Part shown: positions 18,090 to 20,181 of the stretch, piece after piece
Numbering within the stretch: the stretch's first letter is position 1
Layout of the letters: each line of letters starts with the position of its first letter
Assembly (NCBI GenBank): GCA_013314755.1
Contig: JABUFA010000033.1
Location: 1-43,048, forward strand
DNA length: 43,048 bases
Reading direction: 5' to 3'
Source: Chthonomonadia bacterium
Lineage (GTDB): Bacteria > Armatimonadota > HRBIN16
Position numbers and translations under genes: made by a program
Notes under the pieces: model-generated
Database searches by the model: none
Told to the model about the DNA's origin: nothing
The model's input: only the letters and a program-made list of their open reading frames with translations

Positions 18090-18119
18090 CCTCATGCAAG
18101 CAAATGGTCGGAGATGGCT

Positions 18120-19655
18120 ATGAGGATTTCTCTGCAGTCAGCGGTCAGGTGTCCGGTATGCCAAGAGGACGTTGAGGGCAATCTAGGAAAGCACATCCAG
18201 CAGGTACACGGTGAGCAGGCGTATACCAGAGCAGTACTGGACGCCAGGCAGGCTGGCATGTCAGATGCCGAAATTGGAGCGCGTTTCGGGATCACGCTCA
18301 AACAGCTGGAGCGGCTCGTGTTACAAGCGCACGGCATTAACGTTTCCCCACTCCCCCAGCAGGCGCAAGTCAAATCGTGGTTTCCCAAAGATTTTAAGCC
18401 AGAGACAACGACGGTCTGGAGCTACAAACAGCGAGGTAATTGGGCAACACACAACGGCAGGTATCGCGGGAACTGGTCCCCCTATATTCCGCGCAACCTG
18501 ATCCTGCGATACAGCCAGCCCGGCGAGGTCGTGCTGGATCCCTTCGTGGGAGGAGGTACCACGGCGGTAGAAGCCAAACTGCTGGGGCGCAAATGCATAG
18601 CGGTAGACGTCAACCCGGCGTGCGTGGAGTTAACCCGACAGAGCCTGCGGTTTAATCCGCCCAAAACGCTTTTCAGTGAACTTCCCCTCTACGAGCCAAT
18701 GGTTCAGGTCGGGGATGCCAGGAACCTTGAGAGCATCGCCAGCGATAGCATTGACCTCATCTGTGCACATCCCCCCTATGCTGGCATTATTGAGTACAGC
18801 CCGCAGATAGAGGGCGACTTATCGCAGCTTGGGGTAGACGAGTACGTGCACCAGATGCAGATGGTAGCGGAGGAGTGTTACAGAGTGCTGAAACCGGGGC
18901 GATACTGCGCCGTGCTTATCGGTGATACCAGAAAGCACAAGCACGTAGTGCCGATCGGCTTTCGCGTGATTGATGCCTTCCTGCGCGCCGGGTTTCGCCT
19001 GAAGGAACTGGTCATCAAGAGACAGCACAACTGCAAAACCACAGGGTTCTGGAGAGAGAGGAGTATCCAGCACAACTTTCTTCTGTTAGCACACGAGTAT
19101 CTGCCCGTCTTCGAAAAACCTGCGGATGTTGATCTTGCCGGGGAGGCGCAAACACTATTCGGTTTCTCGCGGGTCCAATCCCTCGATTCAGCGCCTGCCA
19201 CAGAAGACATGGAGACTACCACTGTATGGGTGCTGCCATCTGAGGGATTCGAGAGGCACATCGCTTCCAACGTAACGAGCCGGTATGGTACGGACATTCT
19301 GTTTGTACAAGCCGAACTGCGCAATATCGCCGCAAACCGAATAACAGGTGTGGACAACTCTGTGCGGGACATTGCGGAAACTGTAGATGCATGGCTATCT
19401 CGTCCTGAACACGGAAAATTCGTTGTCATCCAAACAAAAGATGTCCGAACGGGCAGATATCTGTTACCCATGGGCAAGATACTGACCGATGCATTCCAGC
19501 ACGATAAACGCCTGTGGCTCAAGGAGATCGTCATTGCGGTACCTGATAATCCAGCGCTACCTGCTGACGAATCACCAGATAATCTGGCTATTGTCCACAA
19601 GTACATTCTGGTTTACGAGGTGAGAGATGATGAGAAAGATTATCGCATTCGTTAA
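18120..19655 (+). CDS. DNA methyltransferase with N-terminal zinc finger and degenerate second half
   Basis: The 511-residue protein starts with a C2H2-type finger (Cys11, Cys14, His25, His30), followed by a helix-turn-helix-like MSDAEIGARFGITLKQLE. A complete amino-methyltransferase core comes next: TTTVW (96-100), the SAM-binding DPFVGGGTT (140-148) and the catalytic-loop HPPY (217-220), where His replaces the usual Asp/Asn/Ser. Residues 365-511 repeat part of this layout: TTTVW, then a G-x-F...D-V-R...LPMG...DAF...LKEIVI tail, without the SAM and catalytic motifs. It probably methylates adenine-N6 or cytosine-N4. The ATG at 18120 has GGAG six bases upstream; an ATG at 18114 abuts that site. 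The next gene overlaps its end. Confidence 0.85.
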   Translation: MRISLQSAVRCPVCQEDVEGNLGKHIQQVHGEQAYTRAVLDARQAGMSDAEIGARFGITLKQLERLVLQAHGINVSPLPQQAQVKSWFPKDFKPETTTVWSYKQRGNWATHNGRYRGNWSPYIPRNLILRYSQPGEVVLDPFVGGGTTAVEAKLLGRKCIAVDVNPACVELTRQSLRFNPPKTLFSELPLYEPMVQVGDARNLESIASDSIDLICAHPPYAGIIEYSPQIEGDLSQLGVDEYVHQMQMVAEECYRVLKPGRYCAVLIGDTRKHKHVVPIGFRVIDAFLRAGFRLKELVIKRQHNCKTTGFWRERSIQHNFLLLAHEYLPVFEKPADVDLAGEAQTLFGFSRVQSLDSAPATEDMETTTVWVLPSEGFERHIASNVTSRYGTDILFVQAELRNIAANRITGVDNSVRDIAETVDAWLSRPEHGKFVVIQTKDVRTGRYLLPMGKILTDAFQHDKRLWLKEIVIAVPDNPALPADESPDNLAIVHKYILVYEVRDDEKDYRIR

Positions 19656-20181
19656 AGCTATCCATTACCACATCTACTGCTCGTACAGACTCTGGCAATT
19701 TAGACGTAAACTCGTAGATGACGTTATTTACACCACAGAAAGAAATGTCAGAATATGCGTTTACCCTGGCAAGAAAACGCAATCTCCCTTCGATTTTATT
19801 GTCAGATATACGGAGTCCGGCAAACGCGAGCGCACACCCAAACATGTTCACCTGATTGTAGAGATGTATGTGAAACACGCTTTCAATCCGGAGCTAACCA
19901 TGAAGCTGCGAGACCATATACTGACCATGCTCGATAACATCCATCCTGTCAATACGTTCCCGCCCCAACTGCAATATTTCCGCCCCGAGCACATAGAGGA
20001 TTTCCGAGAACTGGATCATGTGGGCGAGTTTACTGTAGAGTTCTTGCTCGTCGTTAGTGAATTGATAGGAATACAGGAGAAGACAAACTACCCGAAAGGC
20101 TCGCTTACCCAAAGCCTGTACGCAGACTTCGGCGTTAAAGACCGCTTTTCAGTGATACAAAAAGCTGTATGGAGAGGATGA
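19627..20181 (+). CDS. Unknown protein overlapping the methyltransferase gene; candidate cognate partner
   Basis: This 184-residue protein starts inside the methyltransferase gene (overlap 29 bases) with GAGG six bases before the ATG at 19627; an ATG at 19630 is an alternative. It has a basic, aromatic N-terminal helix and a central RTPKHVHLIVEMYVK segment. Alternating strands and helices follow; there is no signal peptide or membrane segment. I cannot see a clear PD-(D/E)xK or HNH nuclease motif. Context suggests a restriction enzyme, a specificity subunit or another partner, but this is inference. DNA here is AT-rich: 19681-19800 is 39% GC by hand count, against about 72% at 14701-14760, which suggests recent transfer. 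Confidence 0.7.
   Translation: MMRKIIAFVKAIHYHIYCSYRLWQFRRKLVDDVIYTTERNVRICVYPGKKTQSPFDFIVRYTESGKRERTPKHVHLIVEMYVKHAFNPELTMKLRDHILTMLDNIHPVNTFPPQLQYFRPEHIEDFRELDHVGEFTVEFLLVVSELIGIQEKTNYPKGSLTQSLYADFGVKDRFSVIQKAVWRG

Follow-up and report, generated by a model that had tools for sequence, protein, structure and literature searches.

A putative DNA amino-methyltransferase carrying a degenerate second copy of its own catalytic domain

Architecture of the locus and the catalytic half

The window (43,048 nucleotides, the whole stretch of DNA that was analyzed) contains, between thrS and a tRNA-Met gene, a gene for a methyltransferase with a long C-terminal tail and, overlapping its 3' end, a conserved smaller gene (Table 1). 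The surrounding genes are housekeeping ones, with no defense island; the methyltransferase also adjoins thrS in three other members of the genus, and fourteen further amino-methyltransferase-like matches are found in the same genome. The reading frame is open from ATG 18114 to 19655 (513 amino acids); because a GGAG at 18110-18113 lies 6 nt before ATG 18120 but 0 nt before ATG 18114, the former is the likelier start. Unless stated otherwise, residues are numbered on the 513-residue translation (P0001), and the numbers of the first-pass annotation, which refer to 511 residues, are lower by 2.

Table 1. Features of the methyltransferase gene and its downstream neighbor (residue numbers as in P0001)
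Feature	Residues	Position in the window	Strand	Basis
Whole gene, methyltransferase with pseudo-methyltransferase tail	511 in total	18120..19655	+	Open reading frame, translation, ribosome-binding site
C2H2-type zinc finger (C13, C16, H27, H32)	13-32	18150..18209	+	Motif; AlphaFold2
Helix-turn-helix segment	34-73	18213..18332	+	Predicted helices 34-46, 51-58, 62-73
Catalytic methyltransferase domain, motif order X-I-IV	86-337	18369..19124	+	PF01555, PADLOC
Motif I, DPFVGGGTT, AdoMet binding	142-150	18537..18563	+	Absent from tail
Motif IV, HPPY, catalytic	219-222	18768..18779	+	Invariant in 71 sequences
Linker between the halves	338-364	19125..19205	+	Low model confidence, poor conservation
Degenerate second methyltransferase copy (pseudo-domain)	365-506	19206..19631	+	hhalign, secondary structure, shared residues
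Partner gene, conserved, overlapping downstream	183 in total	19630..20181	+	26 bp overlap with methyltransferase gene

The N-terminal finger recognized in the first-pass annotation (Cys11, Cys14, His25 and His30 in the 511-residue numbering) has the CxxC...HxxxxH pattern, and AlphaFold2 confidently predicts a beta-beta-alpha unit for it (strands 11-12 and 19-20, helix 24-32; pLDDT about 96). The best Pfam finger match, zf-Di19, is sub-threshold at 14.6 bits against a cut-off of 27.5, and the CxxC-H-H motif occurs in 30 of the 70 relatives. The adjoining segment, earlier described as helix-turn-helix-like, is indeed predicted to consist of three helices; it matches HTH_23 weakly, below the Pfam cut-off, and is found in all full-length relatives with a complete N-terminus. 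The support for both elements thus comes from the predicted structure more than from Pfam.

The central part of the protein is an N6/N4 amino-methyltransferase, as had been proposed: PF01555 scores 98.1 bits against a cut-off of 26.7, motifs I and IV are present, and TTVW, DxFxGxGTT and HPPY are conserved across the family. The PADLOC profile of Type II methyltransferases (MTase_II, PDLC03376) matches residues 86-335 with an E-value of 1.2e-86 and ends before the tail, so that the pseudo-domain lies outside the profile. The X-like motif TTTVW (98-102) is followed by motifs I and IV, with no target-recognition insert visible. This is not the beta-class order (IV, target-recognition domain, I) but a circular permutation of the one in solved PF01555 relatives, in which motif I lies near the C-terminus. 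Nor does the enzyme belong with MT-A70 (METTL3/METTL14), which is not among the 13 Pfam families matched up to E = 1.

The tail as a degenerate copy of the catalytic domain

The tail is a degenerate copy of the enzyme's own methyltransferase domain. The repeats that had first hinted at a duplication are both located in the translation, TTTVW at 96-100 and 366-370 (511-residue numbering) and the series G-R/K-Y/F...D-x-R...P-x-G...DAF...LKE-x-VI in both halves, as originally placed. The window protein by itself gives a weak self-comparison, with E = 8.6e-5 for tail against catalytic half, so that it is the family alignment that settles the homology. Comparison of the tail profile with the catalytic-half profile by hhalign (72 sequences) produces a single collinear alignment of 167 columns, with a probability of 98.8%, an E-value of 5.9e-17 and a score of 109.5. 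In the controls, 100 column shuffles peak at a score of 23.4 (lowest E, 0.0089) and the reversed profile reaches 11.3; the two halves accordingly align far better than shuffled profiles. The match persists when the TTTVW segment is left out (E = 7.1e-13), sub-regions also match alone, and a tail HMM hits the catalytic half of the same protein, at E-values from 1e-5 to 6e-13, in nearly all genomes searched. Searched against the sequences of solved structures, the tail profile produced chance-level matches only, and in IMG/VR the tail alignment turned up no further tail.

The AlphaFold2 model of the whole chain (pLDDT 88, pTM 0.90) agrees with this relationship. The secondary structures predicted for the two halves coincide at 114 of 144 aligned positions (79%) with zero helix/strand conflicts, compared with a mean of 32% and a maximum of 47% in a circular-shift control. 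Because of this agreement within the full-chain model, the unrelated fold that had been considered as an alternative for residues 360-511 is not what is predicted. The halves themselves appear to be confidently placed relative to each other, whereas pLDDT falls under 50 at linker residues 342-351.

The loss of DPFVGGGTT and HPPY from the second copy, observed initially in the window protein, holds for all 71 family members examined: none of the 71 tails has a GxGTT or xPPY motif. The deletion goes further, as the counterpart of catalytic residues 137-214 is missing, and with it the AdoMet pocket (strands 1-3), motif I and the stretch leading to motif IV. The designation "pseudo-half" in the first-pass annotation is therefore apt for a degenerate methyltransferase copy but too generous in extent, the tail covering no more than a portion of a methyltransferase. 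At ten strongly conserved tail positions, the residue is identical to its catalytic-half counterpart (E367, V371, W372, N386, D443, R445, P452, E471, H495 and Y497), and the conserved R390 aligns opposite K/R132; W372, N386, R390, D443, E471, L491 and Y497 are invariant among tails. Because the residues kept in both halves do not belong to the AdoMet or catalytic motifs, they point to shared packing or backbone contacts. The tail changes faster than the catalytic half (mean identity 35% and 69%, respectively) and yet keeps these ten residues, a combination that fits retained packing rather than catalysis.

Family history and partner genes

A scan of 84,980 species genomes identified 528 relatives of the query protein, of which the best 80 were kept; the family analysis drew on 70 proteins that have the full architecture. 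Nearly all of these best 80 of 528 loci, from many phyla of bacteria and archaea, encode the full architecture, although the best matches to a full-length query favor tail-bearing forms, so that no frequency among all relatives is implied. Members were detected in Chloroflexota, WOR-3, Planctomycetota, Zixibacteria, Thermodesulfovibrio, Archaeoglobus, Methanophagales, Lokiarchaeota and others. In the phylogenetic tree, the 71 tails all group together in a single clade (support 0.998, branch length 1.56), which indicates one duplication that preceded the spread of the family. The distances of tail and catalytic half are correlated (r = 0.74; best of 1000 permutations, 0.25), and the halves have therefore been inherited together. 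The fused arrangement is ancient and common to bacteria and archaea.

Unlike the window enzyme, single-domain relatives lack the finger, the helix-turn-helix and the tail. Three of these amino-methyltransferases (L039 from Fusobacterium vincentii, L149 and L150) belong to the same catalytic subfamily, L039 being about 52% identical to the catalytic half, and adjoin full DpnII endonucleases. At L039:2345-5726 (NZ_CP084075.1, labelled a plasmid yet 2.1 Mb long), an apparent Dam-type methylase, the DpnII endonuclease, another nuclease-like open reading frame and the single-domain relative are encoded in a row. A phage member (L038) possesses the catalytic half and the tail without finger or helix-turn-helix. 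On its viral contig (L038:5013-6264, IMGVR_UViG_3300005573_000104), each half has a gene to itself; the two genes overlap, and GAAGGG precedes the ATG of the second. The split form was rejected as an ancestral two-gene state, given that its catalytic half branches from within the fused family; a one-base shift from the fused frame, arising in sequencing or assembly, could also account for the split. Two other apparent exceptions turned out to be contig ends: a free-standing tail (L141), whose frame opens with the last residues of a catalytic half, and a 62-residue match in another genome (G008) that had been considered as a relic.

The start codon of the 183-residue downstream gene, ATG 19630, is preceded by GAGGTG, and in the genome scan at least 21 loci have a homolog of its product beside the methyltransferase. 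The family has conserved S-x-x-D and TPxHxH motifs, and the protein is modeled by AlphaFold2 with a pLDDT of 92; no family or fold match was obtained with Pfam, PADLOC and other family profiles, or with Foldseek (none below E = 1.6). Its best VIA-align hit, R.CcoLI, has a Z-score of 3.7, within noise, and was not adopted as an indication of a nuclease. We infer that the protein may be the nuclease of the pair or an accessory of that nuclease, and consider the family a candidate new restriction or accessory protein.

In other loci, DpnII-family endonucleases, PDDEXK_11 nucleases, DUF6996/6997 proteins (with a match to a Type II restriction profile) and other types are encoded by the next gene. 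For example, the gene of one tail-bearing member (L132) is paired in a unit of two genes with that of a full-length DpnII-family endonuclease (8.4e-96), and the surrounding 8.5 kb contain no other methyltransferase. A Type III Mod subunit would be accompanied by a Res helicase, and no helicase-sized open reading frame lies next to the window gene. Because the relatives adjoin many unrelated restriction-type partners, the family most likely functions as the modification subunit of Type II-like restriction-modification pairs; for the window gene, this assignment depends on the 183-residue neighbor.

Several further partner families were observed in the scan. Proteins of 402-450 residues with a sub-threshold DUF2400 match (L056:1717-3066, L069:5110-6315 and 11 similar loci) contain the stretch GYGLKKANMLIRDM, which is like that of a helix-hairpin-helix DNA glycosylase. 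Another small family (L057:2022-2558, L094:5023-5565, L135:968-1504) resembles the 183-residue family in its C-terminal part, and partners of these two types occur in tandem in L054 and L094. Proteins of about 190 residues that start with HTTFxxNxxxIL (L099:5029-5604, L105:5024-5590, L135:391-975) have no Pfam match and look DarT-type-like by eye. At L135 (G320:C75), a tail-bearing methyltransferase, an L057-type protein, an HTTF protein and one of the 402-residue type form a four-gene cluster.

Possible roles of the tail

The explanation that best accounts for the whole, and that we hold with somewhat better than even confidence, is that the window gene specifies the modifying member of a small Type II-like restriction-modification pair, an enzyme with a permanently attached inactive partner tail. 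Residues 86-337 would bind AdoMet and methylate a DNA amino group (N6-adenine or N4-cytosine). The tail arose by one duplication of the catalytic domain, after which the AdoMet-binding half and the catalytic loop were lost; it may pack on the catalytic half, and stabilize it, much like the second subunit in an amino-methyltransferase dimer, an arrangement suggested by the pTM of 0.90 and by analogy. Probably, the tail would also add DNA contacts or target recognition, the catalytic core having no inserted recognition domain; the finger and helix-turn-helix could contribute more DNA contacts or expression control.

By analogy, the protein may best be read as a single-chain pseudo-heterodimer, like EcoP15I Mod2 or METTL3-METTL14. 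In EcoP15I, one Mod subunit recognizes DNA and the other methylates it (PMC4490356); METTL14 has a degenerate active site, maintains the integrity of the complex and binds substrate (PMC5023411). The Type III Mod2 pair is thus similar in that one copy of an amino-methyltransferase reads DNA while the other methylates, but its subunits are identical and active, form a homodimer, carry an inserted target-recognition domain and work with a helicase partner; the window enzyme shares none of these features. METTL3-METTL14 shares the combination of a catalytic methyltransferase with a homologous partner whose active site is degenerate; it differs in consisting of two separate MT-A70 proteins with an RNA substrate and in the whole methyltransferase fold of METTL14, whereas the window enzyme is one chain in which the partner half lacks the AdoMet-binding half. 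Both precedents are beta-class, unlike the permuted X-I-IV core described here.

The first-pass annotation had suggested a built-in heterodimer acting on an asymmetric DNA site. With a catalytic half, a pseudo-half and a pTM of 0.90, the heterodimer is a reasonable deduction; the asymmetric site fared worse. DpnII-type enzymes characteristically cut the palindrome GATC. At a palindromic site, one methyltransferase per nuclease suffices, whereas asymmetric sites usually require that both strands be served. The one-to-one pairing of the tail-bearing L132 enzyme with its DpnII-type endonuclease, with no second methyltransferase nearby, lends no support to an asymmetric site.

An unlikely but genuine competitor is a tail that serves mainly as a structural or folding element or as a homodimerization module and does not read DNA, specificity being set by the finger and helix-turn-helix. 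The retention of core-type residues in the tail is compatible with this, as is the fact that all full-length members have the helix-turn-helix along with the tail and single-domain relatives have neither; however, the phage member has both halves without either N-terminal element, and the finger is limited to fewer than half of the members (30 of 70). Quite improbable, in our estimate, is an assembly platform in which the cognate restriction partner, or another accessory protein, attaches to the tail and modification is thereby coupled to restriction. In many loci, the downstream gene directly follows the tail, with apparent translational coupling, and several partner families exist, but with a single tail clade facing many unrelated partners a specific docking surface would need great adaptability.

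An RNA methyltransferase outside restriction-modification is suggested by the fold searches. Foldseek and VIA-align runs with the full AlphaFold2 model probe only about residues 66-339, because the catalytic domain takes up the match list, and the nearest solved folds of the catalytic half are the tRNA methyltransferases Trm11, TrmN and Trm14 of the Trm11 group (Trm11 by VIA-align: Z 20.7, 180 aligned, rmsd 2.5, residues 95-336). Kinship in function with Trm11/TrmN is nevertheless very improbable, considering that there is no THUMP domain among the Pfam matches, that the MTase_II profile matches strongly and that relatives are paired with restriction endonucleases. That the tail is a functionless remnant, as the loss of all catalytic motifs and the faster evolution might suggest, is scarcely credible for a segment of single origin that is intact across many phyla and has invariant residues.

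Returning to the modification enzyme with an attached inactive partner, the division of labor between methyltransferase copies is known already, by position in EcoP15I and by degeneration of one copy in METTL3-METTL14. We found no described pseudo-methyltransferase tail of this kind in the open-access literature, and the family profiles used stop before the tail. The new element is the conserved, half-deleted pseudo-domain: the copies are fused, the inactive one has shrunk to a portion of the fold, and bacteria and archaea alike have retained this design. A broader proposal, namely a widespread prokaryotic class of restriction-modification systems in which the half-deleted copy of a single-chain pseudo-heterodimer reads DNA and the nucleases are exchangeable, including the unrecognized 183-residue family, is possible but rather doubtful. 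The enzyme is a compact system in which to ask which features an inactive methyltransferase copy has to retain in order to be of use; its natural truncation suggests that the AdoMet-binding half is dispensable for such a copy, and the linked partner genes point to restriction-type proteins that the family libraries used do not recognize.
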